Source: Oleiharenicola lentus (GTDB taxonomy: Bacteria > Verrucomicrobiota > Verrucomicrobiia > Opitutales > Opitutaceae). From it: DNA of 64,000 bases. The notes under the pieces were generated by a model. The model worked only from the letters and a program-made list of their open reading frames with translations, searched no databases and was not told where the DNA came from. The translations under genes were made by a program, and so were the position numbers. Shown here piece after piece: positions 24,493 through 44,851 of this stretch. Every line of letters begins with the position of its first letter. Within the stretch, counting starts at the first letter, position 1. The stretch is taken from contig NZ_SDHX01000001.1 in the NCBI RefSeq assembly GCF_004118375.1, forward strand, positions 1,801,693-1,865,692, given 5' to 3'.

Positions 24493-25743
24493 TTGTCCCC
24501 GACCCTGCGCATCGCCTTCCGATTCCTCACGGCCAAGAAACGGGCCATGCTGATGAGTCTTTCGTGCATCGTGCTGGGCGTCGGCCTGTTCGTTGTCACG
24601 CAGGCGACCACGAGCGGCTTCGAGGAGTTTTTCATCAAGACGATCCTGGGCAACGACGGTGCCATCCGGGTGGAGGACCGCATGCAGGACACCATCCGCT
24701 CCCGCGAGGCAGGGGGCCCCGACGGCGGCAGCACCTTCCAGATCCAGCAGAAAGAGGGGCGGAAATACATCGAGGGCATTGAGGAGCCGAAGCAGATCAT
24801 CAAGGCGCTGCGGGAATTCCAGAATGTCCGGGGCGTTTCCGAGGTGATCACCGGCTCGGCCGTGCTGGCGAGCTCGTTCAAGAGCGAAACGGTGAAGCTC
24901 TTCGGCATCGACATCGACAACCACATCACGGTCTCGGAACTCGGAAAACAGATCGTGCAGGGCGAGTTGAACAATTTTCGCACCAAGGCCGCGGGGGCCC
25001 TCATCGGCAAGGAAGTCGCCGACCGGCTGCAACTCGGGGTGGGGGACTCCTTTCTCCTCGAATCCGCCGGCCAGCTCCGCCGCTACAGCGTCTCGGCGGT
25101 TTTCCAGACCGGCGTCAGCGACATCGACAAGACGCGGATCTATCTGCACCTGCCCGAGGCGCGCTCGCAGCTGAAGAAACCGACCGGGGCTACCTTCATC
25201 CAGGTCAGCGTCTATGATCGCGACCGGGCGGACGAGGACGCCCTCCAGATGGAAGAGGTGCTGAAACACGGGGTGCGGGAATGGCAGCGCCGCGAAAAAA
25301 CCTGGCTGGAGACCTTCCGCGCCTTGCGTCTGTCGTCGGCCATCACCGTCTCCATGTTTTCGCTCATCGCGGGTCTGGCCATGTTCAATACGCTCGCGAT
25401 GATTGTCATGGAGAAGACCAAGGAAATCGCGATCCTCCGCTCGATGGGTTACACGCGGGAGGATATCTCGCAGATTTTCCTCTGGCAGGCCACCATCGTC
25501 CTGGCGATCGGCTCCATGGTCGGCTGCATCCTGGGGGCGGGCGGCACGTTTGCGGTGTCGCGGATTCCGCTCAACATCACCGGCATTTTCCGGACCAACA
25601 CCTTCATCGTGAGCTGGTCCGCGTGGCATTATGTGGCGGCGGTGCTCACCGCCGTGGCCATGGTCATGGTCGCCTCGCTCATCCCCGCCCGCCGCGCCGC
25701 GCGCCTCGAGCCGGGCGACATCATCCGGGGGACGTCCACATGA
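24493..25743 (+). CDS. FtsX/LolCE-type ABC transporter permease
   Basis: A 416-residue protein with one N-terminal helix (about 19-40), a large periplasmic MacB-PCD-like domain (about 45-275) and three C-terminal helices. The latter hold the E-K-T-K-E-I-A-I-L-R-S-M-G-Y motif near 305-320, typical of the LolC/MacB/FtsX class. These move lipids, peptides or drugs from the periplasmic face using ATPase-driven leverage. The start is a TTG at 24493; no ATG gives the conserved N-terminus. The hairpin TGACGG/CCGTCA overlaps the stop. Confidence 0.87.
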   Translation: MSPTLRIAFRFLTAKKRAMLMSLSCIVLGVGLFVVTQATTSGFEEFFIKTILGNDGAIRVEDRMQDTIRSREAGGPDGGSTFQIQQKEGRKYIEGIEEPKQIIKALREFQNVRGVSEVITGSAVLASSFKSETVKLFGIDIDNHITVSELGKQIVQGELNNFRTKAAGALIGKEVADRLQLGVGDSFLLESAGQLRRYSVSAVFQTGVSDIDKTRIYLHLPEARSQLKKPTGATFIQVSVYDRDRADEDALQMEEVLKHGVREWQRREKTWLETFRALRLSSAITVSMFSLIAGLAMFNTLAMIVMEKTKEIAILRSMGYTREDISQIFLWQATIVLAIGSMVGCILGAGGTFAVSRIPLNITGIFRTNTFIVSWSAWHYVAAVLTAVAMVMVASLIPARRAARLEPGDIIRGTST

Positions 25744-25909
25744 CGGCTCCCGCCGTCATGTCAGGAGCAGGGAGAAGGGAGGAGGGAGCTTTTTTGCGAC
25801 CGGAGGCCGGAGACTGGAGGCTGGAGACTGTAGGCTGGAGGCTGGAGACCGGAGACCGGAATCGGGAATTTCAACGGGCTATAACAAACAAACCCAAGGA
25901 GATCGTGTC

Positions 25910-26271
25910 ATGAAGCAGCCCATCAAACGTTTTGAAGACCTGGAAGTATGGAAGGAAAGCATGCAACTCGCGGTGCAAGTCTATAAAGCCATGGAGCATT
26001 CGCGGGATTTTGGCCTGAAAGATCAGATGCAGCGGGCGGCAGTGTCTGTTCCCTCCAATGTGGCGGAAGGTTACGAACGCAGTTCCAACCGTGAATTTGT
26101 GCAGTTTCTCAATTATTCGAAGGGATCGAGCGGCGAATTGCGCACCCAGATTTATTTGGCAGCCAAGCTCGGTCAGCTGAAGCAACCGGTGGCGGGTCAG
26201 CTGTTGGAAAAGAGCCGCAAAGTATCGGCCATGCTGCACAAATATGTGCAGGTTCGTCAAAAGGACTTCTG

Positions 26272-26272
<1 letters not shown>
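25910..26272 (+). CDS. S23-type four-helix-bundle protein
   Basis: A 120-residue all-helical protein of the 23S-rRNA intervening-sequence (S23/four-helix-bundle) family: F-E-D-L-E-V-W-K near residue 8, then Q-M-Q-R-A-A-V-S-V-P-S-N-V-A-E-G-Y and F-V-Q-F-L-N-Y-S-K-G-S-S-G-E-L. A good AAGGAGA lies about 7 bp before the ATG. The stop overlaps the ATPase start by 1 bp. Family members form pentameric bundles; their function outside rRNA and retroelement contexts is not established. It sits between permease and ATPase and is flanked by inverted repeats. Confidence 0.85.
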
Positions 26273-27246: not shown

Positions 27247-27906
27247 ATGTCAAAGATCTTCCCGAAATCCGCCAACGCCCTGCCCCTGCAGATCCTGATT
27301 TTCCTCGGTATCCTGGGTGGTGTCGCGGCGGCAGGCATCACTTACTACGCCACCCCGGCTTACCTCCGCGTTGGTTATGCTCCGGTCCAGCCGGTGCCCT
27401 TCGACCACAGCCTGCACGCCGGCCAGCTTGGTCTCGACTGCCGTTACTGCCACACCTCGGTGGAGAAGTCCGCGACCTCGAGCGTTCCCGCGGCGCAGAC
27501 CTGCATGAACTGCCACGGCACGATCAAGGCCCAGAGCCCGCTGCTCGAGCCCGTGCGCCAGAGCTACCAGAGCGGTGATCCGGTGCCATGGGTGAAGATC
27601 CACGCCGTGCCGGACTACGTTTATTTCAACCACTCCGTCCACGTCGCCCGCGGCGTCAGCTGCGTCGAGTGCCACGGCAAGGTGAACGAGATGAAAGTCG
27701 TGAAGCAGGACCAGCCGCACAGCATGAGCTGGTGCCTCGACTGCCACCGCGATCCGGCCGCCCGCATCCGCGACCCGCAGGATGTTTTCAACCTGAACTC
27801 CGCCCGCCTCATTGACCAAGGCCCCGAGGGGCTCAAGAAGGCCCAGCAATTTGTCGAACACGCCAAGATCATGCCCCCGCAGAGCTGCTCCGGCTGCCAT
27901 CGCTGA
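27247..27906 (+). CDS. actA: Alternative complex III pentahaem cytochrome c subunit ActA
   Basis: 219 residues with an N-terminal membrane anchor (about 12-35) and five CxxCH haem motifs: C-R-Y-C-H, C-M-N-C-H, C-V-E-C-H, C-L-D-C-H and C-S-G-C-H. That is the pattern of ActA, which passes electrons from the iron-sulfur subunit towards the monohaem subunit at the periplasmic surface. It opens the operon after a 237-bp gap where the promoter should lie; I could not fix a promoter there. The next gene starts in the stop codon. Confidence 0.93.
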   Translation: MSKIFPKSANALPLQILIFLGILGGVAAAGITYYATPAYLRVGYAPVQPVPFDHSLHAGQLGLDCRYCHTSVEKSATSSVPAAQTCMNCHGTIKAQSPLLEPVRQSYQSGDPVPWVKIHAVPDYVYFNHSVHVARGVSCVECHGKVNEMKVVKQDQPHSMSWCLDCHRDPAARIRDPQDVFNLNSARLIDQGPEGLKKAQQFVEHAKIMPPQSCSGCHR

Positions 27907-30900
27907 TGAAACGCAAATTTGACCATTCCCCTGCCGCGAGCCTGTCGAACGGCGCCCCCACCGGCCCGAAATACTGGCGCAGCCTCGACGAACTGGCCGA
28001 CACGCCCGGCTTCCGCGAGCACATGGCCCGCGAGTTTCCCGAGGGCGCGTCCGAGCTGAACGGCGTCGATCGCCGCCAGTTCATGCGCCTCATGGCGGCC
28101 TCGTTCGCCCTGGGCGGTCTTGGTCTCGCCGGCTGCCGCCGTCCCGAAAAGCACATCCTGCCTTACGGCAAGTCGGTCGAATACACCGTCCCCGGCCTCC
28201 CGCTTTATTTCGCGACCGCGATGCCCCTGCGCAAGACGGCCATCCCGCTCGTCGCCGAGACCCATCAGGGCCGCCCGACCAAGCTGGAAGGCAATCCCAG
28301 CTACCTGCCGCACGGCGGCGCCAGCTCGCTCCTCGCCCAGGCTTCCGTCCTCGATCTCTACGACCCGGAGCGCGCCTCCGCCCACACGGCCGGCACCCGC
28401 ACGCTCAACGTGGCCGATGTCAACGACCTCCTCGCGAAGATCCGCTCGACCTACGCCGGCAACGGTGAAGGGCTCGCCTTCCTGGCCGACGAATCCGCCT
28501 CGCCGACCCGTGCCCGCTTGGTGGCCAAGCTGAAGAAGGAATTTCCCCGCGCCATATGGGCCGAATACGAGCCCGTGCAGGACGAGGCTCCGATTGCCGC
28601 CGCGCAAGCTGCCTTCGGCAAGAACGTCAAGCCGGTCTATCGCTTCGCCAAGGCCAAGCGCATCGTCAGCATCGACGCCGATTTCTTCCACGCCGAGGCC
28701 GGTTCGCTCTATTACGCCCGCGATTTCGCCAAGGGCCGTCGCGTCTCCTCCAAGGAAGACGCCGACAAGATGAACCGCCTTTATGTGGCGGAGAGCGGTT
28801 TCTCGCTCACCGGCAGCATGGCCGACCACCGCCTGCGTCTCGCCAGCAACCACATGCTGGCCTTCGCCGCCGCCCTCGCGGGCAAGGTGCTGGGTACCTC
28901 CGTTTTCGAGTCGCTCACCAAGGGGCTCGACATCAAGGCCGAGTGGGTCGAGCAGTGCGCCAAGGACCTGCTGGCACACAAGGGCGAGAGCCTCGTGGTC
29001 GCCGGCGCCCATCAGCCCGCCGCCGTCCATGTGCTCGCTTATGCGATGAACGCGTTCCTCGGCGCCCCGGGCAAGTCCGTGGACTTCGTCGCCGTCGAGC
29101 CATCGTCCGCCTCCACGATCCAGGCCCTGACGACCGCCATCGACGCCAAGTCGGTCAAGACCCTCTTCATCCTCAACGGCAACCCGGCCTATAACGCGCC
29201 TGCCGATCTCGATTTCGGGGCGAAGCTGAAGTCCGTGCCGCAGGTCATCCGCTACGGTTACTATCAGGACGAGACCTCCGCGCTGGCCGGCACGCACCTG
29301 GCGGCCACCCATTACCTCGAGTCGTGGGGCGACGCCCGCACCGTGGACGGCACCATCGTGCCGGTGCAGCCGATGATCATGCCGCTCTTCAACGGCCTGA
29401 ACGAGGTCGAGCTGCTGGCCCGCCTCGCCGGCGAAGCCAAACCCGACGCCTACGAGCAGGTCTTCACGACCCGCGGCGGCGACCGGAAGGCCTTCGAGAA
29501 ATTCCTCCATGACGGTCTGGCCGAAGGTTCGGCCTACAAGTCCGTGGATGTCGCCTTCGATCCGCAGCGTGCCGGTGCCGTACTCTCCAAGGTTCCGGCC
29601 TTTGCCGCGCTCTCCAAGGACAGCCTCGAAGTCCGCTTCGTGACCGATCACAAGATGGATGACGGCCGCTTCGCCAACAACGGCTGGCTCCAGGAGTGCC
29701 CGGACCCGATGACCAAGATCGCCTGGGACAACGCGATCCTCATCAGCCCGCGCCTGGCCAAGGACCTTGGCATCGTGCCCGGTGGCAGTCTCCTGCAGGT
29801 TGCCCGCAAGGAAGAGGCGGAGTTCACGGTCGGCAAGGAGAACGCCTTCCTCGGCGAAGTCACCGTCAACGGCCGCAAGATCACCGGTCCGCTGCACATC
29901 CAGCCCGGTCTCTCGAATTACACCATCGTCCTCCCGCTCGGCTACGGCCGCACCAAGACCGGTCATGTCGGCACCGGCGCCGGCTTCGATGCCTATGCGA
30001 TCCGCACCGGCGACAGCATGGGTTTTGTCACCGGTGCCACGATCCGCGTGACCGGCGAGCGCAAGCTCCTCGCCAACACGCAGGAGCACTGGTCCATGGA
30101 AGGCCGCGATATCGTGCGCGAGGCCAACCTCGACGAGTTCAAGGAGAACCCCGCTTTCGTGACCGGCATCGGCATGGAGTCGCATTCGCCCGCGATCTAC
30201 GGCGACCTCACGCCCGAGGCTTTCGCCAAGCTGTCCCGTGAGGAGCGCGCCAAGATCACGGCCGAGCGCGCCGGCACCACGCCCCGCGGTCAGTCGCTTT
30301 ACGAGACGCCCGACTTCGCCGGCGAGAACGCCAAGTTCGACGGCCTCCACCAGTGGGGCATGTCCATCGACCTCAACACCTGCATCGGCTGCAACGCCTG
30401 CGTGATCGCCTGCCAGGCGGAGAACAACATCCCGATCGTCGGCCGCGACCAGGTACAGCGCGGCCGTGAGATGCACTGGATCCGTCTCGACCGCTACTAC
30501 TCCGACGGCCAGGCCGATCCGACGGCGTTTGGCGTCGAGGGGGGCAACTCCGTGCTGCCCGAAGACCCGCAGGTTTCGATGCAGCCCATGACCTGCCAGC
30601 ATTGCGAGCTCGCGCCCTGCGAGACCGTGTGCCCGGTCAATGCGACGGTGCACGACGAGGAGGGCCTCAACACGATGGCCTACAACCGCTGCATCGGCAC
30701 CCGCTATTGCGCGAACAACTGTCCCTACAAGGTTCGTCGCTTCAATTTCTTCGACTTCAACAAGCGCGCCACCGACTCGCTCTACATGGGCCCGCTCGGT
30801 CACCAGAAGGAGATGCCGGAACTGGTCAAGATGGTGAAAAATCCGGACGTCACCGTGCGCATGCGCGGCGTCATGGAAAAGTGCACCTACTGCGTCCAGC

Positions 30901-31277
30901 GCATCCAGCAGGCCAAGATCGCGCAGAAGCGGAAGACCGGCCTCAACGGCGTGCCCGAGATTCCCGACGGCACGATCAAGGTGGCCTGCCAGCAGGTTTG
31001 CCCGGTCGAGGCCATCGAGTTCGGCAACGTCAAGGACGTGAACAGCGCGGTCTCCAAGCTGAAGGCCCAGGAGCGCGACTACGCGGTCCTCGGCTACCTG
31101 AACGTCCGCCCGCGCACCACCTACCTCGGCAAGCTCCGCAACCCGAACCCGCACATGCCGGATTATTCCCAGCTCCCGCTCAGCCGCGTGGAGTATAACC
31201 GCAAGAACGGTCACGCCGAGCACGGCGCCGGCCATGGTCATGCCGACCATGGTCAGCAGAACGGAGGGACCCATTAA
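27906..31277 (+). CDS. actB: Alternative complex III molybdopterin-like/iron-sulfur subunit ActB
   Basis: 1123 residues, the fused ActB1-ActB2 form. A Tat-type D-R-R-Q-F-M (near 57) is followed by a hydrophobic run ending L-A-G-C, a possible lipobox. Residues about 90-780 form the molybdoprotein-like domain, which in characterised complexes binds no cofactor. The C-terminal part holds four Cys clusters: [11 protein letters not shown] near 824, [21 protein letters not shown] and C-T-Y-C with C-Q-Q-V-C-P. These bind [4Fe-4S]/[3Fe-4S] clusters that take electrons from menaquinol. The tail is His/Gly-rich. Confidence 0.94.
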
Positions 31278-32710
31278 TGGCCTCACACGCTTCTGATCAT
31301 CCGGCTCCCGCCATCCTCTCCGAGGTCAAACCCGCGGTGCTCGCGCGCCCGGTGCTGGTGCATCATCACCGGGACTTCAAGTGGATCACCGACAAGATCT
31401 GCGGCATCGTCGAAGGCACCACGCCGACCTGGTGGTGGGTGTGCTTCGTGGTCGCCAGCTTCGTGGCCTGCTTCACGATCGCCGGCCTCATCCACCTCGT
31501 CGCCACGGGCGTCGGCGTGTGGGGTCATGCGAATCCGGTCAACTGGGCCTGGGACATCGTCAACTTCGTGTTCTGGATCGGTATCGGCCACGCCGGCACC
31601 CTGATCTCGGCCATTCTCTGCCTCCTCCGCCAGAAGTGGCGCACCTCGATCAACCGTGCGGCCGAGGCGATGACGATCTTCGCCGTGGTCTGCGCCGCGA
31701 TCTTCCCGGTGTTCCACGTCGGCCGCATCTGGTTCGCGGTGATGCCCGGCTACCTGTTTCCGTTCCCCAACTCGAACGGCATCTGGCAGAACTTCCGCTC
31801 GCCGCTGGAGTGGGACGTGTTCGCGGTCTCGACCTACGGCACGGTGTCCTGCCTCTTTTGGTATATCGGCCTGATCCCCGACCTCGGCACGATGCGCGAC
31901 CGTTTCACGGCCGCCGGCAAGATGATGCGGGCTCGCATCTACGGCTTCTTCGCCATGGGCTGGCGCGGCTCCAACCGCGCGTGGAGCAACTACGAGATGG
32001 CCTACCTGATCCTGGCCGGCATCTCGACCCCGCTCGTGCTCTCCGTGCACACGATCGTGTCGTTCGACTTCGCCGTCTCGCTGATCCCCGGCTGGCACAC
32101 GACGATCTTCCCGCCTTACTTCGTGGCGGGCGCCATCTTCTCCGGCTTCGGCATGGTCATGACGCTCATGCTCCCGCTGCGCGCCGTTTACCGCCTGGAG
32201 GACCTGATCACGCAGTATCACATCGACTGCATGTGCAAGATCACCCTCGCGACCGGCACCATGGTGGGCTACGCCTACTCGATGGAGTTCTTCATCGCGT
32301 GGTATGGCGCGAATCCGTATGAAGGCTTCGCGTTCATCAACCGTGCGTTCGGCCACTACGCCTGGGCCTACTGGATCATGATCGGCTGCAACGTCATCAC
32401 GCCGCAGTTCTTCTGGTTCAAGGCCGTCCGCGAGAACACCGCGCTGGTCTGGATCCTCTCGATCTTCGTCAACGTCGGCATGTGGTTCGAGCGCTTCGTG
32501 ATCATCGTGACCTCGCTCGCCCGCGACTTCCTGCCGTCGAGCTGGGGCTACTACTCGCCCTCGATCGTGGAAATCTTCACGTTCTTCGGCACCTTCGGTG
32601 TCTTCTCCGTCCTCTTCCTGCTCTTCATCCGCTTCGTGCCCATCATGCCGATGTCCGAGGTGAAGGCGGTCATCCCGCAGGCCGACCCGCACGGCGAGCA
32701 CAAGCACTGA
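31277..32710 (+). CDS. actC: Alternative complex III NrfD-like membrane subunit ActC
   Basis: 477 residues with about ten membrane helices in the NrfD/PsrC fold, the first quinol-binding membrane subunit of alternative complex III. The start overlaps the ActB stop by one base. The N-terminal cytoplasmic segment (L-V-H-H-H-R-D-F-K) and the helix containing [13 protein letters not shown] are typical. It pairs with ActF downstream. Confidence 0.94.
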
Positions 32711-32720
32711 GGACCCTGCC

Positions 32721-33251
32721 ATGAGCAAAAATTACGGAATCATCGCCGCTTTTGACACCGTGCCGGATGTCTTCCACGCCTGTGAACAGGTGCGGGATGC
32801 CGGCTACTCGCAGTGGGACACGATCACCTCGTTCCCCATCCACGGCCTCGATGCCGCCATGGGCATGCGCCGCTCCCGGGTGCCGCGGTTCTCGCTCGCG
32901 GGCGGCATCACCGGTTTCTGCACCGGCATGTCGTTCATCTGGTGGGCCGGCGCCTACGAATATCCGCTGATCGTGGGCGGCAAGCCCTACTTCAGCCCGA
33001 TGTTCGCCTTCCCGGTGTCCTACGAGCTCACCATCCTGTTCACCGCCTTCGCCACTATCTTCGGCATGTTCTTCCTGAACAAACTGCCCATGCACTACCA
33101 CCCCGTGCTGAAGGCCCCGCAGTTCGTCCGCGCGCTGGATGACCGCTTCTACATTGTGATCGAGTCCGCCGACCCGAAATTCAACGCCACCGAGACGCGC
33201 GCCCTGCTGCAGCGCGCCGGCGGCAAGGACATCGTCGAAATCGAGGAATAA
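32721..33251 (+). CDS. actD: Alternative complex III subunit ActD (DUF3341)
   Basis: 176 residues. It starts Y-G-I-I-A-A-F-D, with V-F-H-A-C-E-Q-V-R-D-A-G-Y and P-I-H-G-L-D-A-A-M-G near residues 37-46, then two membrane helices (about 58-80 and 95-118). This is the DUF3341 subunit found between ActC and ActE in all such operons. It packs against ActC and the cytoplasmic face; no cofactor is known. Confidence 0.93.
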   Translation: MSKNYGIIAAFDTVPDVFHACEQVRDAGYSQWDTITSFPIHGLDAAMGMRRSRVPRFSLAGGITGFCTGMSFIWWAGAYEYPLIVGGKPYFSPMFAFPVSYELTILFTAFATIFGMFFLNKLPMHYHPVLKAPQFVRALDDRFYIVIESADPKFNATETRALLQRAGGKDIVEIEE

Positions 33252-33252
33252 G

Positions 33253-33894
33253 ATGCGTTACGCCTACTACACCCTCGCGTTCCTCGTCATCCTGACCCTC
33301 TCGGTCATGGGCTACCGTGGCTCGCTCTCCACCCGTCCCCCGGTCGAAATCTGGCCCGACATGGACCACCAGGCCAAATACAAGCCGCAGGCGGAATCCA
33401 AGTTCTTCGCCGACGGCCGCGCCGACCGTCCGATCCCCGCCGGCACCGTGCCCTTCGGCCGCAACAGCCAGGAGTCCGACGACGCCTACCTGCGCGCCGA
33501 CGACGCCCGTTACGCCGGCAAGCACGCCGACGGCTCGTTCGTCCGCGGCTTCCCCGCCGGCCTGGAGCTCAACGAGAACTTCGTGCGCCGCGGCCAGAAC
33601 CGTTACCAGATCTACTGCGCTCCCTGCCACGGCGCACTCGGCGACGGCAACGGCATCACCAAGTCCTACGGCATGGTGGCCACCCCGAATTATCACGAGG
33701 ACCGTTTCCGCTCGATGGCGGAAGGCGAGTTCTTCAACACGATCACCAACGGCAAGAACACCATGCTCGGTTATGCTGACAAACTCAGCCCCGACGACCG
33801 CTGGGCCGTGATCGCCTATGTGCGAGCCCTGCAACGCGCCGCCCACGCCACGATTGACGATGTCCCTCTCGAACAACGCGGAGGCCTGAAGTAA
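33253..33894 (+). CDS. actE: Alternative complex III monohaem cytochrome c subunit ActE
   Basis: 213 residues with an N-terminal membrane or lipoprotein-like anchor (about 5-20) and a single C-A-P-C-H haem motif near residue 122. A likely axial Met is in the N-T-M-L-G-Y segment. Starting 1 bp after actD, it fits ActE, the exit point handing electrons to cytochrome c or directly to an oxidase. Confidence 0.93.
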   Translation: MRYAYYTLAFLVILTLSVMGYRGSLSTRPPVEIWPDMDHQAKYKPQAESKFFADGRADRPIPAGTVPFGRNSQESDDAYLRADDARYAGKHADGSFVRGFPAGLELNENFVRRGQNRYQIYCAPCHGALGDGNGITKSYGMVATPNYHEDRFRSMAEGEFFNTITNGKNTMLGYADKLSPDDRWAVIAYVRALQRAAHATIDDVPLEQRGGLK

Positions 33895-33895
33895 C

Positions 33896-35176
33896 ATGAG
33901 CGCCGCTCCCTCCACTCACGCCTCGACGGCCGCCCTGGCCAACAAGTTTCTCCTGGCCGGCATCGCCGGGCTCGTGCTCACCGCCATCGGTCTCTTCGTG
34001 GACGCCCACGGGGCGGCGTTGTCCTACGTGGTCGGCATCAGCTACTGGACCGCCGTTGCCATCGGCATGCTCATGCTGGTGATGATCCACCATATCTTCG
34101 ATGCCGGTTGGTCCACCGTGATCCGCCGCCAGTTCGAGCACGGACTCTCGGCCTTCAAGTGGCTGTTCATCCTCTTCATCCCGCTGGTCATCTCGGCCTG
34201 GGCCAAGCCCGGCTTCATCTGGCACTGGATGGATCTCAGCCACCCCCTGCATGGCGGACACGGCACCATCGGTGACGATCCGCTCTACCTGAAGAAGGCC
34301 GCGTTCCTCAGCAAGGAGATGTTCACCGGCATGACGGTGGTGTTCTTCCTCGGCTGGATGGGCCTCTCCGCGCTCCTGCGCCGCAACTCCTTCAATCAGG
34401 ACAAGGACGGTGACGTGAACTGGACCTACAAGAACCGCCAGACCGCGGCCTGGGGCATCCCGTTCAACGCCCTCGCCCTGACTTTTGCCGCCATCTACTG
34501 GATGAAGAGCCTCGAGTATCACTGGTTCTCCACGATGTATGGCGTGTGGTTCTTCGCCAACTGCATGCGTGCCGCCCTGGCCATGGGTGTGGTCATCACC
34601 TGGTGGCTCTACACCCGCGGAGACTACAAGGGCATCTTCAACACCAACCAGCTGCACTGCCTCGTGGCGCTCGCCTACGCCTTCGTGGTGTTCTGGGCCT
34701 ACGTCACCTTCTCGCAGTATTTCCTGATCTGGAATGCCAACGTGCCGGAGGAAACCTTCTGGTATAACCTCCGTGAGCATGGCGACTGGCAGTGGGTGGG
34801 ACTCGGGCTGCTCTTCGGCCATTTCTTCGTGCCGTTCCTGCTCTGGCTCTCTTATCGCCGCAAGTCCACCCTCGGGCCTGCACTGAAGATCAGCCTCTGG
34901 ATCGCCGTCGTGATCCTCGTGGACATCTGCTACAACGTGCTGCCCGCGCTCCGCGACTCGCATGAACAGCCCCTGCCGTTCCTCTCGCTCAACCTGCTGT
35001 GGGTCCTGAGCTCCGTGGTCGGCGTCGGTGGCATCTGCGTCTGGTCCTACCTGAAGAGCTACGGCAGCGGTCAGGCCAAGCTGATTCCGATTCGCGATCC
35101 CCGCATCGTCGAGTCTCTCACCCATCATGACGCCACGGCTCCGGAGCCGGCGCCCGCCCGTCCCCACTGGATATGA
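33896..35176 (+). CDS. actF: Alternative complex III membrane subunit ActF
   Basis: 426 residues with about ten helices, the second NrfD-like subunit and structural partner of ActC. It follows ActE after 1 bp. Short polar N- and C-termini are normal for the family. The next gene starts inside its stop (ATGA). Confidence 0.93.
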   Translation: MSAAPSTHASTAALANKFLLAGIAGLVLTAIGLFVDAHGAALSYVVGISYWTAVAIGMLMLVMIHHIFDAGWSTVIRRQFEHGLSAFKWLFILFIPLVISAWAKPGFIWHWMDLSHPLHGGHGTIGDDPLYLKKAAFLSKEMFTGMTVVFFLGWMGLSALLRRNSFNQDKDGDVNWTYKNRQTAAWGIPFNALALTFAAIYWMKSLEYHWFSTMYGVWFFANCMRAALAMGVVITWWLYTRGDYKGIFNTNQLHCLVALAYAFVVFWAYVTFSQYFLIWNANVPEETFWYNLREHGDWQWVGLGLLFGHFFVPFLLWLSYRRKSTLGPALKISLWIAVVILVDICYNVLPALRDSHEQPLPFLSLNLLWVLSSVVGVGGICVWSYLKSYGSGQAKLIPIRDPRIVESLTHHDATAPEPAPARPHWI

Positions 35177-35481
35177 GCGATTCCTCCTCCAACTTTTCCT
35201 TCCCGCACCGCACCCCGGTCTTCACCGCGGTCATCGTAATCTTGTGCTTTGCCGCGTTTGGCTGGCTGGCGCGCCGCATTTATGTGCCGCACGCCGCCAC
35301 TGTCCAGCCGGTTGAGGGCGTCCTTACGCCGGCTGAGCGCAAGGCGCGGCTTGATGAACACCACGCCAAGGACCAGGCCGCCGCCACCAGCTATGGCTGG
35401 GTGGACCAGTCCAAGGGCGTGGTCCGCCTGCCCATTGACCGGGCCATCGAGCTCACGGTCCGCGACCTCGCCAAGAAGTAA
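35173..35481 (+). CDS. Small membrane-anchored protein between complex III and cytochrome oxidase-like genes
   Basis: 102 residues: one membrane helix (about 13-33) followed by a polar domain with T-P-A-E-R-K-A-R-L and the conserved-looking block Y-G-W-V-D-Q-S-K-G-V-V-R-L-P-I-D-R-A. I recall this Y-G-W-V-D...L-P-I-D-R-A-x-E-L pattern from small proteins in oxidase gene clusters but cannot name a function. It overlaps actF by 4 bp and ends 3 bp before the CcoN homologue, so it is translated with both and may join complex III to the downstream module. Confidence 0.75.
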   Translation: MSDSSSNFSFPHRTPVFTAVIVILCFAAFGWLARRIYVPHAATVQPVEGVLTPAERKARLDEHHAKDQAAATSYGWVDQSKGVVRLPIDRAIELTVRDLAKK

Positions 35482-35484
35482 CCC

Positions 35485-36942
35485 TTGCTGATGAATCCCA
35501 ACGTTTCCCACAGCCGCGCCGAGCAGGCGGAGATCGATGCTTCCGCCCGGTGGCCGGTCACCGTCTTCCTCGTCTCGGGTCTGCTCTGGCTCATCGCCGG
35601 CGGAGCGCTCCAGCTCGCGGCCAACATCCAGCTGCACACCCCGTCCTTCCTAGCGGATTGCGCCTGGTTCACCCATGGTCGCCTCGCCCCCGCCGCGCAG
35701 AACGCGCTCGTCTATGGCTGGGGCTTCAATGCCGCCTTCGCCTTTGGGCTCTGGCTGATGGCTCGCCTGTCGGCCACCACGTTGCGCCACGGTGGCTGGC
35801 TCTTTGTCGCCGCAAAGTTCTGGAACGTCGGTGTCACCCTCGGCCTCGCCGGCATTCTGGGCGGGTATTCCACCTCCTTTGAGCTGCTGGAAATGCCCAA
35901 GCACGTCGCGCTGCTCTTGCTCGGCGCCTACGCCTTGATCGGTGTCTGGGCCGTCACGACCTTCAGCATCCGCAACACGGAGAACATCTATGCCTCGCAG
36001 TGGTATCTATTCGGCGCCGCCTTCTGGTTCCCGTGGATTTACAGCATCGCGCAGGTGATGCTCATCCGCACCCCGGTGCGCGGTGTCCTCCAGCCGGTCG
36101 TCAACGCCTGGTATGTCCACAATCTCTACGCCCTGTGGTTCCTGCCGATGGCCCTCGCCGCCATTTACTACCTTCTGCCCAAGCTGCTCGGCAAACCCAT
36201 CAGCCAATACTATCTGGCGCCGCTCGCGTTCTGGTGGTTCGTGATCTGTTCGGCCTTCGCCGGCGGCGCCCGTCTCGTCGGCGCGCCGGTGCCGGTCTGG
36301 ATTCCGACGCTCGGCACGGTGGCCAGTTTCTCGCTGCTCCTGCCGCTGATCATCTTTGGTCTGAACTTCATGGGCACCGTTTCCGGCCGGTTTGGCCATG
36401 TCGGCGGCAGTCTTTCACTCCGCTTCGTGCTGCTCGCGATGGGTGGCTTTCTGGTCAACGTGATCCTGACCCTCTTGCTGTCCCTGCCGCGGTCTGCCGA
36501 GATCGCACAGTTTACCCTGCTGGGCACCCTGCGGGACTGGTCGGCGCTCTACGCGACCTTCACCGTGGCGATCTTCGGTGCCGCTTACTTTTTCCTGCCA
36601 CGCCTGACCGGCAAGGAGTGGCGTTCTTCCGCCCTCATCAAGGCGCACTTCGGCGCCACGGTCGTGGGGCTCATCCTGCTGGTCATCGGCTACGGTGCCG
36701 GCGGGTGGCAGCAGGGCGGCTTGCTCAACAGTGCCTCGGTCGGCTTCGCTGACATCACCGCCGCGCTCTCCGGCTGGCACATGCTGAACACCGTCGGCCT
36801 GGGCGTTCTGCTCGTCGGCCATCTCGCTTTCCTCATCAACTTTGTCTGGATTGCCTGCCCCATCAACTCGCAGGGCACCGCCAATGTCTCCATCCCGGTG
36901 CCGCCCGCGCTCGCCTTGGCGGGGAAGGAGGGCCACGCATGA
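35485..36942 (+). CDS. CcoN-like (cbb3 subunit I) homologue lacking most metal-binding histidines
   Basis: 485 residues and about 12 helices, aligning along its length with cbb3 oxidase subunit I. Key histidines are missing. The helix II haem ligand in G-R-L-x-P-L-H-T-N-A reads G-R-L-A-P-A-A-Q-N-A. The CuB pair in A-G-P-H-H reads A-G-G-A-R. The haem-ligand H-x-H before the helix ending Y-L-V-P-R-L is absent, the segment reading D-W-S-A-L-Y-A-T-F. Only the His in W-Y-V-H-N, equivalent to the first CuB ligand, remains. It cannot be a normal oxygen reductase unless other residues substitute. The frame is intact and the genes overlap, so it is not a decaying pseudogene. Motif comparison is from memory of the family. 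Confidence 0.8.
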   Translation: MLMNPNVSHSRAEQAEIDASARWPVTVFLVSGLLWLIAGGALQLAANIQLHTPSFLADCAWFTHGRLAPAAQNALVYGWGFNAAFAFGLWLMARLSATTLRHGGWLFVAAKFWNVGVTLGLAGILGGYSTSFELLEMPKHVALLLLGAYALIGVWAVTTFSIRNTENIYASQWYLFGAAFWFPWIYSIAQVMLIRTPVRGVLQPVVNAWYVHNLYALWFLPMALAAIYYLLPKLLGKPISQYYLAPLAFWWFVICSAFAGGARLVGAPVPVWIPTLGTVASFSLLLPLIIFGLNFMGTVSGRFGHVGGSLSLRFVLLAMGGFLVNVILTLLLSLPRSAEIAQFTLLGTLRDWSALYATFTVAIFGAAYFFLPRLTGKEWRSSALIKAHFGATVVGLILLVIGYGAGGWQQGGLLNSASVGFADITAALSGWHMLNTVGLGVLLVGHLAFLINFVWIACPINSQGTANVSIPVPPALALAGKEGHA

Positions 36943-37595
36943 AAAACGGTCTCATCATTTTCCTTGGCGTCTTCGCCACGCTGGCGGTCTCCTGGGCCGG
37001 ATTGCTGCTCGGCGCACACAAACAGATCGGCTCGCTCCCGCAGTTCAAGGACCCGATCGAACAGACCCTGAACCCGGCGCCGCTCAGCGGCATCGCCGAC
37101 CAGGGCCGCCTCGTTTACCAGGATCTGGGCTGCGCCACCTGCCACACGCAGCAGGTGCGGTACGCCGGCTTCGGCGCCGACATCGAGCGCAAGTGGGGTG
37201 AGCGCGGCAGCTTTGCCCGCGACTACATCCGCGAGCAGTCCGTGCTGATCGGTTCCAGCCGCCTCGGTCCGGACCTGCGCAATGTCGCCGCCCGGCCCTA
37301 CGCCAGCGCCGAGTTTTTCCACGGCCTGCTTTATGCCCCGGAGTCGGTCGCCCCCGGCACCAACATGCCGGCGCACAAGTTCCTTTACGAGGTGCGTTCG
37401 CTGAATGGCAGCCAGTCCTCCTACAAGGCGCTCAAGCTCTCCGGCACACACGCCCCCGCCGAAGGCTCCGAAGTGGTGCCGACCTACCGGGCCGAGGCCC
37501 TTGTCGCCTACCTGATGAGCCTCAAGGACACCTACAACTATCCCGACGAACAGGGCCTGAATGCGCCCGCCCCCGCGAAGGAGGGCGGCCACTAA
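36939..37595 (+). CDS. ccoO: CcoO-like monohaem cytochrome c
   Basis: 218 residues with an N-terminal helix (about 5-23), a C-A-T-C-H haem motif near residue 65 followed by T-Q-Q-V-R, and the S-S-R-L-G-P-D-L-R-N-V and N-M-P-A-H blocks that correspond to the G-P-D-L and axial Met regions of CcoO. Haem binding looks intact, in contrast to its CcoN partner, which it overlaps by 4 bp. Confidence 0.88.
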   Translation: MKNGLIIFLGVFATLAVSWAGLLLGAHKQIGSLPQFKDPIEQTLNPAPLSGIADQGRLVYQDLGCATCHTQQVRYAGFGADIERKWGERGSFARDYIREQSVLIGSSRLGPDLRNVAARPYASAEFFHGLLYAPESVAPGTNMPAHKFLYEVRSLNGSQSSYKALKLSGTHAPAEGSEVVPTYRAEALVAYLMSLKDTYNYPDEQGLNAPAPAKEGGH

Positions 37596-37596
37596 G

Positions 37597-38250
37597 ATGA
37601 GCGCCAATCACGACAACAAGTTCAACTTCGAGGCCTCCGCCGCGAGTGATGACAGCATCCGCGAGGTCCACGCCAAGCTGCAGAGCAACAAGCCCGACAA
37701 ACCCCACGGTTATCCGGCGCTCCCGCTCGTGATGCTTGGCATCATGTGCTGCGTCGGTTTCTTCGGCTCCATCTACATGGTGCATTACTCGATTCGCTTC
37801 GACCCGCTCGTGGTCAACGCGCACGCGAACCGCGCCAAGCCGGGTGAAAAAGCCGCCGTTACGCTCACCCGCGCTCAGCTGGGCAAATCCATTTACACGG
37901 CCAACTGCATTGCCTGCCACCAGGCCACCGGTGGCGGCGTGCCGGGTGCCTTCCCTCCGCTCGCTGGATCCGAGTGGGTGGCGGGGAGCGAGGAGCGTCT
38001 CGTGCGCATCGTGCTGCACGGCCTGCAGGGCCCCATCAAGGTCGCGGGCAACGACTATAACAACGTCATGGCGCCACTGGGCGCCGTCCTGAAGGACGAG
38101 CAGATTGCCAACGTGCTCTCCTATGTTCGCCAGACCTGGGGCAACAACGCCCCCGATGTGGAGCCCGCGACGGTTGCGAGGATTCGGGCCGAAACCGCCT
38201 CGCACTCCGGTTACTGGACCGCGGAAGAGCTGCTCAAGATCGGCAACTGA
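37597..38250 (+). CDS. Membrane-anchored monohaem cytochrome c (CcoP position)
   Basis: 217 residues: a cytoplasmic N-terminus, one helix (about 43-65) and a class I cytochrome c domain with C-I-A-C-H near residue 104 and a probable axial Met in N-N-V-M-A-P. It takes the place of CcoP but has one haem motif, where CcoP normally has two. It is last in the respiratory operon, 25 bp before a strong terminator. The ATG at 37597 follows the CcoO stop by 1 bp. Confidence 0.87.
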   Translation: MSANHDNKFNFEASAASDDSIREVHAKLQSNKPDKPHGYPALPLVMLGIMCCVGFFGSIYMVHYSIRFDPLVVNAHANRAKPGEKAAVTLTRAQLGKSIYTANCIACHQATGGGVPGAFPPLAGSEWVAGSEERLVRIVLHGLQGPIKVAGNDYNNVMAPLGAVLKDEQIANVLSYVRQTWGNNAPDVEPATVARIRAETASHSGYWTAEELLKIGN

Positions 38251-43019: not shown

Positions 43020-43666
43020 AGCAGGGGGTGAAGGACGGTCCAGACGGTCTCGGCCACGATTTGGTGGCCTTGAGGGGTTGGGTGGATACCGTCGGGCAAG
43101 TTGAGGCTAGCCACGCCGCCCACGCCTTCAAGGAGGAAGGGAATGAGCACGGCTTCCGTCTTCCGGGCAACTTCCGGGAAAATGGCGGCGAATTCGCGAG
43201 TGTGTTCGGGGCCCATGTTGGTCGGCATCTGCATGCCGGCGATCACCACTTTTACGTCTGGTTGGCGCTGCCGGATGCGTTGGATCATCGCCTCGAGATT
43301 GGCCCGCGTGGTGGCGGGTGGGATGCCGCGCAAGCCGTCGTTGCCGCCGAGCTCGATCACAAAGATGTCCACCTTTTGTTTCAGGATCCAATCGAGACGC
43401 CGCAACCCGCCGGAGCTGGTCTCGCCGCTGAGACCGGCGTTGACCACGCGCCAAGTTTTGCCCGCCTCGTCGATTTTTTTCTGGATGAGGGCCGGGTAGG
43501 CCTCGTCAGGGTCCACGCCATAGCCGGCGGTCAGGCTGTCGCCGAAAAAAATCACGGTTTTGAATTCCGCCGCGACCGCGTTGACGGCCAGCCAGAGCAG
43601 CATAAAGGCCGTTCGCCACGATTGGCTTTTGCGCTTTGGGGGAAGTTCACTCTTGTTCGGGGCCAT
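43016..43666 (-). CDS. tesA: Arylesterase / lysophospholipase L1 (TesA-like)
   Basis: About 216 residues with an N-terminal signal or anchor. The SGNH core has F-F-G-D-S-L-T-A-G-Y-G (catalytic Ser), E-L-G-G-N-D-G (oxyanion Asn) and D-G-I-H-P (Asp/His). It is divergent from an ABC ATPase/permease pair, the same arrangement as tesA-ybbA-ybbP in enterobacteria. The ATG at 43666 leaves 14 bp to the divergent start at 43681. A start at 43681 on this strand is possible but would overlap. Confidence 0.88.
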   Translation of the reverse strand: MAPNKSELPPKRKSQSWRTAFMLLWLAVNAVAAEFKTVIFFGDSLTAGYGVDPDEAYPALIQKKIDEAGKTWRVVNAGLSGETSSGGLRRLDWILKQKVDIFVIELGGNDGLRGIPPATTRANLEAMIQRIRQRQPDVKVVIAGMQMPTNMGPEHTREFAAIFPEVARKTEAVLIPFLLEGVGGVASLNLPDGIHPTPQGHQIVAETVWTVLHPLL

Positions 43667-43680
43667 ATTTGATTCCCGCA

Positions 43681-44373
<693 letters not shown>

Positions 44374-44402
44374 GTCACTATCCAAACCAACAAGACACAG
44401 CG

Positions 44403-44851
44403 GGCCCACGGAACACACGGAATACACGGAAAGACCTGACCATGAAAAAGCTGATCAACGAAAAGGAGACCTACAGGATTCTAGGAGCCTGCTTTGAAGT
44501 CTATAAGGAGAAGGGATGCGGCTTCCTGGAGGCGGTATATCAGGAATGCCTCGAACATGAATTTGATCTTCAGCAACTGCCGGCCAAGAGCCAGGTGACT
44601 CTGCCGCTGACCTACAAAGGGCGAAAATTAAAGAAGACTTACGAAGCAGATTTCATCTGTTTCGACCGGGTCTTGCTGGAGATCAAGGCGGTCTCAAAGC
44701 TGACCGACGAGCACCGTGCGCAGCTCCAAAATTATCTGCATGCCACAGGTCTCGGAGTCGGGTTGCTGGTGAATTTCGGGCACTACCCCAAAGTGGAACA
44801 TGAACGCTATGTGCTCTAACTTTTCCGTGTATTCCGTGTGTTCCGTGGGCC
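44403..44851. repeat. Cassette with perfect 30-bp inverted repeats around a GxxExxY gene
   Basis: Left arm 44403-44432 and right arm 44822-44851 are exact reverse complements. Each begins GGCCCACGGAACA (or its complement) and is built of the 9-mers CACGGAACA, CACGGAATA and CACGGAAAG. The gene inside starts 9 bp after the left arm and stops 2 bp before the right. The unit lies precisely between the ATPase stop and the permease start. Confidence 0.9.
44442..44819 (+). CDS. GxxExxY protein (PD-(D/E)XK-like)
   Basis: 125 residues. G-F-L-E-A-V-Y-Q-E-C-L matches the G-x-x-E-x-x-Y hallmark. Y-E-A-D-F-I-C-F-D-R-V-L-L-E-I-K-A-V (about 68-85) gives the Asp...Glu-x-Lys signature of PD-(D/E)XK nuclease folds, and L-Q-N-Y-L-H-A-T follows. 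Nuclease-like catalysis is plausible; the biological role of the family is unknown. It is the only gene in a cassette bounded by perfect inverted repeats inside the ybbA-ybbP pair, which suggests it is a passenger or the driver of a mobile unit. Confidence 0.9.
   Translation: MKKLINEKETYRILGACFEVYKEKGCGFLEAVYQECLEHEFDLQQLPAKSQVTLPLTYKGRKLKKTYEADFICFDRVLLEIKAVSKLTDEHRAQLQNYLHATGLGVGLLVNFGHYPKVEHERYVL

Follow-up and report, generated by a model that had tools for sequence, protein, structure and literature searches.

The DNA analyzed here is a 64-kb window of the Oleiharenicola lentus genome (64,000 nucleotides, G000:C1:1801693-1865692; all window coordinates refer to this stretch). It contains a ten-gene operon in which the genes for alternative complex III (ACIII), actABCDEF, are followed by a small frame, orf7, and by three genes, called N, O and P here, that encode homologues of the cbb3-type oxidase subunits CcoN, CcoO and CcoP. 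All ten genes lie on the + strand, and their coordinates and frames were verified. Our analysis suggests that the genes behind the act set are probably a disarmed cbb3-type module that is now part of ACIII, where it would serve as a scaffold for c-type cytochromes that pass electrons elsewhere. N descended from the catalytic subunit of a cbb3-type oxidase and appears to act as an ACIII subunit. An original prediction, made from this one case, had proposed a non-catalytic module attached to ACIII, and comparison with relatives strongly supports this at the sequence level: 99 of 147 N sequences lack ligands, a ccoS-like maturation gene was lost alongside them, and actF lies upstream of N in all 97 depleted loci in which this could be tested.

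A CcoN homologue that has lost most of its ligands

N (35485..36942, +; ATG 35491 is a more likely start than TTG 35485) matches Pfam COX1 (PF00115) with 131.3 bits against a cut-off of 34.8, placing it in the COX1 fold, and aligns over most of its length with the CcoN of solved cbb3 oxidases (best E 3e-21). An AlphaFold model built from a 79-row alignment (predicted local distance difference test 93.9, predicted TM-score 0.93) is closest to CcoN structures, with a TMq of 0.87, a root mean square deviation of 2.3 and 22% identity to 3mk7_A. The ligand positions were read against P. stutzeri CcoN (3mk7) and against the genome’s own intact CcoNO fusion. In place of the H H Y H H H H of intact CcoN, N has A71 H212 S256 A262 R263 R350 W352; thus five of the six haem and CuB histidines and the helix VII Tyr are lost. 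Both ligands of the low-spin haem b are gone (the helix II His is A71, the second His of H-x-H is W352), as is the axial His of haem b3 (the first His of the helix X H-x-H, now R350). The helix VI His of the CuB site is kept as H212, and the CuB His-His pair is replaced by A262 and R263. The helix VII Tyr, replaced by S256, is the cross-linked Tyr that marks the CcoN family. The original prediction had named the losses in helix II, the CuB pair and H-x-H, and this alignment bears out all five; it had mentioned neither the retained H212 nor the lost Tyr.

Against NCBIfam TIGR00780, N scores 92.6 bits, below the cut-off of 583. This model is also missed by four complete act-linked relatives (225-258 bits), and the CcoNO fusion scores 643. 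N does not have the set of ligands by which CcoN is recognized as an enzyme and should not be annotated as a cbb3 oxidase. An alignment artefact was considered and excluded by the cleanly aligned flanking motifs, the close fold match and the concordant loss of ccoS described below. The pattern A-H-[ST]-[AS]-R-R-W is common to 20 sampled sequences of the window’s genus (19 fully covered, one truncated before helix X). From these substitutions we infer that depleted N holds no haem b, haem b3 or CuB and does not reduce oxygen.

The two genes that follow are intact. O (36939..37595, +) overlaps N by 4 bp and encodes a CcoO/FixO-like monohaem cytochrome c (FixO PF02433, 59.3 bits, cut-off 29.6) with a single haem motif, CATCH, and an NMP motif that is the likely Met ligand. 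P (37597..38250, +), which begins just past the end of O, encodes a CcoP-like monohaem cytochrome c that matches Pfam cytochrome c and has an N-terminal hydrophobic stretch and one CxxCH, CIACH. The prediction of intact CcoO-like and monohaem cytochrome subunits therefore stands.

Distribution and gene order

For chosen genomes, up to 19 kb around N was fetched. With N as the query, matches were obtained in 50 of 57 relatives (E ≤ 0.001; the match in G001 is weak and is probably another CcoN) and 171 of 236 genomes of the class (E ≤ 1e-20). ActD is present in 191 of these 236, together with an N match in 169; among the 22 with ActD and no N match, 13 come from one genus (g55, with weaker ActD scores). 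Among the same 22, G066 and G074 have an A-type oxidase downstream of ActD on one contig, as judged by eye.

The order actA-B-C-D-E-F-orf7-N-O-P is kept nearly everywhere; in family f24, P precedes N. The small frame orf7 is kept in most syntenic loci. With enough sequence to tell, actF lies at most 1.5 kb upstream of N in 97/97 depleted and 43/47 complete loci, and nine of ten further depleted loci have actF directly upstream. In G165 (L080, f47), N-O-P stays with actE-actF, and ActD is on another contig; the contig of G251 stops before N.

We compared a chosen subset of 147 N sequences from 146 genomes (that of the window, one from each of 145 others, and a second copy in one of them), calling a sequence complete if it has all seven residues and depleted if at least one is missing. 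By this definition 48 are complete and 99 depleted. Among the depleted, no ligand His is kept in 33, one in 54, two in 8, three in 3 and five in 1. Within the class sample, 122 of the 171 N-positive genomes were classified, 40 as complete and 82 as depleted. Thus the act-linked protein without its histidines, which the original prediction had seen once, is found class-wide, beside complete versions. Eleven genomes read later (Kam1, SolV, G077, G046, G086, G094, G150, G154, G170, G203 and G241) are outside the 147, the trees and the ccoS counts given below; all seven from G086, G094, G150, G154, G170, G203 and G241 are depleted.

The residues that replace the ligands vary by lineage (for example QQGRHQQ, AAGVNQQ, HSAQKFI, FNAAEVL and AGGPAQQ), and both forms occur inside five families (f1, f11, f38, f48 and f52). 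A single ligand, one CuB His, is lost in G161. The four genomes read from family f30 (L076, L097, L131 and L132) keep exactly the two low-spin haem b ligands; f30 is a possible haem-b-only intermediate, judging from these residues, though one in which no ccoS-like gene was found. A reading of the complete forms as nitric oxide reductases was set aside; the helix VII Tyr is present in 48/48, as it must be by the definition of complete.

Some modules stand apart from this arrangement. G033 has a second complete N away from the act genes, near aa3-type oxidase genes (L063:6695-9679), in a 995-amino-acid frame with about 530 unassigned N-terminal residues. Two f49 genomes, G271 (L139) and G127 (L151), have a complete N-O-P and no ActD match in the genome, and L139 has no act genes near N; a complete module can apparently exist without ACIII. 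In five genomes with an N-type operon there is another ActD as well, accompanied at a distance of about 3.5 kb by a CuA subunit gene of the same orientation (G103:C17, G216:C216, G235:C114, G219:C14 and G258:C17), an arrangement that resembles the classical cluster of ACIII and an A-type oxidase.

Beyond the class, a scan with the complete forms confirmed 566 stretches. Of the best 80, considered with their act linkage unread, 79 are labelled Verrucomicrobiota or its groups and one Omnitrophota; four of the 79 are metagenome-assembled genomes labelled ‘Akkermansia muciniphila’, probably wrongly. Among 288 genomes of the phylum that were scanned, 25 outside the class matched, 17 with frames of more than 700 amino acids that resemble CcoNO fusions and 8 with frames of 457-517 amino acids. 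As these eight are unread, a restriction to the class is not established.

Loss of the ccoS-like gene

CcoS is a cofactor-insertion factor of cbb3 oxidases. In a search of 32 genomes with PF03597 (FixS/CcoS), 9 of 14 genomes with the complete form matched (8 above the cut-off), each just upstream of N, and there was no match in 17 genomes with the depleted form (chosen for having two COX1 matches) or in G000, the source of the window. We then seeded a model with two of these frames and iterated it over the 1.3 kb upstream of N. It detected a ccoS-like gene in 46/48 complete loci, among them those of four of the five complete-form genomes missed by Pfam. The two misses are the stand-alone second copy in L063 and L151, whose contig ends just upstream. 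The same model found the gene in 2/99 depleted loci: G161, the one-ligand case, and G044, with a degenerate-looking copy. The four f30 loci gave no ccoS-like gene, the seven depleted loci read later no match at E < 0.01, and there is none before N of the window, where orf7 and N are just 3 bp apart (9 bp if N starts at the ATG). In 17 independent pairs taken from the ActB-E tree described below, ccoS tracks the ligands in 15-16 and is opposed to them in none (p ~3e-5). The gene was lost together with the ligands, as a switched-off oxidase predicts. CcoG was uninformative as a marker, since TIGR02745 matched only in G000 among the 32 genomes.

Probable repeated loss within one operon

A tree of the ActB-E proteins covers 94 operons, each with half or more of ActB and ActC present. 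On it, complete and depleted states interleave, which takes 20 changes or more (19 in a rebuild); strongly supported branches force 16 of these. If loss is irreversible and the tree is rooted at its midpoint, 26 losses are needed on the resolved tree and 18 when weak branches are collapsed. As a check for long-branch attraction, each depleted group was placed alone among the complete N sequences, and it fell near the complete N of its own lineage; groups W, Q and f8 joined at deeper branches beside their own lineages. Distances to 27 complete rows measured on N and on ActB-E agree across 30 groups (mean rho 0.82; lowest in Q, 0.35), and 2000 permutations of the group assignment gave a rho of at most 0.48.

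Conservation and divergence of the subunits

The ratios of nonsynonymous to synonymous substitution rates (dN/dS) between the window and G003, which is 79% identical, are 0.221 for N, 0.206 for ActF, 0.169 for O and 0.210 for P, and N of the window is under purifying selection. Given this ratio and the pattern common to the genus, the loss is not the recent decay of a single copy.

Across the class, depleted N evolves about three times faster than complete N. Normalized by ActB-E distance in two distance bins (the nearer of which holds only 8 complete pairs), N divergence is 0.56 and 0.53 for complete pairs and 2.03 and 1.44 for depleted pairs. The corresponding values are 0.81 and 0.64 (complete) against 1.43 and 0.96 (depleted) for O, and 1.24 and 1.05 against 1.73 and 1.36 for P; ActC, ActE and ActF differ little between the two kinds of pair. 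Complete N has 145 positions that are conserved to 90% or more. In 80 depleted rows, conservation at 44 of these remains at 80% or above, and at 35 it drops below 30%; all the ligands belong to these 35, as do an R and a W at residues 68 and 208 of N in the window. In depleted N the pocket is lost and the frame is kept.

Electron carriers and partner oxidases

The haem motifs of the cytochrome subunits nearly always survive the loss of the N ligands. CxxCH is present in ActE of 75/75 depleted and 33/33 complete loci, in O of 93/95 and 44/44, and in P of 87/89 (the two misses being cut short) and 43/43. O and P seem to be fused in L124 (G037) and L125 (G053), as one frame with two CxxCH, and in f59 (L155, L162 and L172) P has a second CxxCH domain.

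Downstream and in the same orientation, 18 depleted and 6 complete loci have an aa3-type CtaD (one more depleted locus has a fragment of it at a contig end), counts to be read with the fact that many of the searched loci are too short to show one. A CuA-type subunit was found in 78/81 class genomes with depleted N: PF00116 (COX2/CuA) is absent from 3/81 depleted versus 9/40 complete genomes (Fisher p 0.002; before late additions, 2/74 depleted and p 0.0012; G161 is omitted from the table). By eye, two or more COX1 matches are present in 80 of the 81 genomes with depleted N, all but G094. In G046, G059 and G190, all complete forms, N is the sole COX1 match.

Alternative explanations

Several observations weigh against the view that an ACIII-bound module was disarmed many times. 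The main one is the raw tree of N itself (133 of 148 rows, rooted with the genome’s own CcoN and omitting 13 near-identical or partial rows of the window’s genus and 2 other partial rows), which puts 77 of 86 depleted rows in one clade (Shimodaira-Hasegawa-like approximate likelihood ratio test, 92), so that five changes suffice. In a 50-row subset under the default mixture model, the free tree joins 20 of 25 depleted rows and needs three changes; an approximately unbiased test on these rows did not reject f1 as one N clade (p 0.265), which is a non-rejection and nothing more. Outside the trees, G086 (L291, f29) has about 7 kb between actF and orf7-N. Both f37 genomes examined (L085, which is G085, and L168, which is G175) have an O without CxxCH, a further step of decay, with the motif kept in P; they are the two O misses counted above. 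In G094 (L296, f39; 95% complete, 300 contigs) N is depleted, COX1 gives a single weak match and COX2 none, so that a partner oxidase of this type is not visible there. The COX2 association takes no account of relatedness or genome completeness, and N could still bind cofactors through other residues.

The raw N tree favours one ancient loss, and also a history in which the ancestor held two paralogues, a complete and a ligandless N, of which each lineage kept one, so that the ligands were lost once or a few times. A single ancient loss is not favoured by the one-at-a-time placements. The same placements tell against paralogues, as the depleted groups fall beside their own lineages’ complete N and not on one common branch. 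So do the lineage-specific replacement residues, the existence of a one-ligand case (G161) and of a degenerate ccoS copy (G044), and the fact that no genome was seen with both act-linked forms (distant second matches in G023, G027, G038 and G078 are unread). We therefore regard ancient paralogues as unlikely. The depleted clade of the N tree unites families that lie far apart on the ActB-E tree, and we read it as long-branch attraction. We conclude from these comparisons that N was probably inherited with the operon and disarmed many times, the raw N tree being the main evidence against this.

It could also be argued that depleted N is a functionless relic, decaying as it is carried in the operon. 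Its faster evolution, milder in O and P, would fit; yet no internal stop occurs in the listed depleted matches (the lone stop is in G278, a complete form), and the dN/dS of 0.22 in the window’s genus, the 44 positions conserved across the depleted rows and the retention of N behind actF all speak against decay, which makes a relic very unlikely. A different possibility is that depleted N gained a redox or ion role of its own, for example a haem on other residues, a quinone site or a proton channel. H212, R263, R350 and D351 are present in at least 18 of 20 rows of the window’s genus, and f30 keeps its pair of haem b ligands in four genomes. However, residues of the former pocket differ among lineages, leaving no common new site, and the four f30 loci have no ccoS-like gene. 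Such a new role seems quite unlikely to us.

A model for the disarmed module and its relation to known systems

We favour instead the disarmed-scaffold interpretation, in which the ancestral ACIII operon of the class would have carried ccoS-N-O-P with all haem and copper ligands. The ligands and ccoS would then have been lost separately in many lineages, that of the window included, while the N fold, O and P stayed; the sequence comparisons support both steps. Depleted N may persist because ACIII needs a scaffold in the membrane, one that would keep O and P, and possibly a partner oxidase, beside ActA and ActE. Electrons from menaquinol would pass from ActB and ActA, possibly via ActE, to P, and to O as well in most lineages, and finally to a soluble cytochrome c or to the CuA or cytochrome c domain of a separate aa3 or caa3 oxidase. 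The path of the original prediction, which runs from ActE via CcoO and the final cytochrome to another oxidase, is a plausible hypothesis; the kept CxxCH motifs and the downstream CtaD genes fit it, and the f37 O proteins and G094 tell against it. More tentatively, and with our own opinion about evenly split, ACIII of this class may be a ten-subunit complex whose built-in oxidase was switched off independently about 18 or more times, with N kept each time as a cofactor-free docking hub that would relay electrons from ACIII to a separate oxidase. Likely surviving intermediates are forms in which one ligand is lost (G161), in which the haem b pair alone is left (f30), in which every ligand is gone, and in which O has no haem motif (f37).

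The module has the features of the cbb3-type (C-family) CcoNOP in its CcoN fold, its FixO-like O and its CcoP-like P. Unlike these oxidases, it has lost five of six ligands and the Tyr in N of the window, has no ccoS-like gene there, and has one haem motif in P, whereas a typical CcoP has two.

In Rhodothermus marinus and Flavobacterium johnsoniae, ACIII associates with an A-type oxidase, and direct electron transfer has been proposed (PMC5928083, PMC8552683). The order of act genes followed by oxidase genes is the same in the ACIII-caa3 of R. marinus and the ACIII-aa3 of F. johnsoniae, but their partner is an active A-type oxidase, and the module described here is C-type derived and disarmed. 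In F. johnsoniae, ActE is unnecessary for electron transfer to aa3 (PMC8552683), which makes other exits for electrons from ActA plausible. By comparison with PMC5928083, orf7 occupies the position of ActG.

ACIII beside a ‘C-type oxidase’ has been described for Opitutaceae and verrucomicrobial methanotrophs (PMC8498564, citing Refojo 2010), clusters that are the same operon as the one here. The ACIII genes of Methylacidiphilum Kam1 were reported to be co-located with a cbb3 oxidase and tied to high oxygen affinity (PMC6688271), and a cbb3-type oxidase was counted in isolated verrucomicrobial methanotrophs except PQ17 (PMC8498564). At the seven sites, Kam1 (G104) and SolV (G069) both have SESSHFV and Opitutus terrae (G023) has QQGRHQQ, so that these modules are of the depleted form, in contrast to the cbb3 or C-type oxidase of those papers; in Kam1, one of the six ligand histidines is left, in helix VII. 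Other Opitutaceae, such as IMCC26134 (G182), have the complete form. In Kam1 and SolV, N is followed by homologues of ctaD, ctaE and ctaC. A search for a second CcoN, in which 5/7 and 5/9 first-look candidates were scored, gave N alone in SolV and N plus a weak match (3e-16) in Kam1; the same alignment search finds other CcoNs at about 1e-88 to 1e-118, and a second CcoN in either genome seems unlikely on these scores. We found no mention of ligand loss in ACIII-linked CcoN in the literature covered, which left out most subscription journals. The gene table for Verruconatronum (PMC13274419) lists ActABCDEF and then three consecutive genes labelled caa3 (2); the gene count would fit orf7-N-O-P, and the label may be worth checking.

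The catalytic subunit of heme-copper oxidases is strongly conserved, and repeated removal of its ligands with the protein kept suggests that its role in ACIII is separable from oxygen chemistry. If the more tentative ten-subunit reading is true, a recurrent pseudo-oxidase sits at the centre of a respiratory chain. The intact, half-disarmed and disarmed versions form a natural series on the need of ACIII for a partner and an electron exit. There is also a practical side, as the presence of the gene has been taken to mean a high-affinity cbb3 oxidase in Methylacidiphilum Kam1, whose act-linked CcoN is depleted.

The act genes, other oxidases and neighbouring frames

The window holds the full actABCDEF set of an ACIII, with ActE and ActF called partly from position and synteny. 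ActA (27247..27906) is a pentahaem cytochrome c with five CxxCH, ActB (27906..31277) a molybdopterin-oxidoreductase-like and Fe-S protein, and ActC (31277..32710) an NrfD-like membrane subunit. ActD (32721..33251; PF11821, 210.7 bits) is the sole ActD match in the genome, which therefore probably has one ACIII. ActE (33253..33894) is a monohaem cytochrome c with the motif CAPCH. ActF (33896..35176) has no Pfam match and was called from its position and its conservation in syntenic operons. The 102-amino-acid orf7 (35173..35481) has one hydrophobic stretch, by eye, and no family match. N-O-P thus lies directly 3’ of actF and orf7, as in the ACIII-linked C-type modules of the class.

Elsewhere the genome has three further COX1 matches. 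L001 is a caa3 oxidase whose CtaC carries a CxxCH domain; L002 is the intact ccoNO fusion, which answers the question of whether a normal ccoN exists elsewhere in this genome; and L003 is a third oxidase that looks B-type by eye. PF00032 was not found in the genome, and one PF00033 protein adjoins L003.

Two frames away from the operon may also be mentioned. A four-helix-bundle-looking frame between ABC transporter permease and ATPase genes (window 25631-26272) presumably resembles a 23S rRNA intervening sequence-like protein, and a second frame (window 43560-44819), whose 3’ part we take to resemble a GxxExxY-type small protein, adjoins an ABC transporter ATPase gene.

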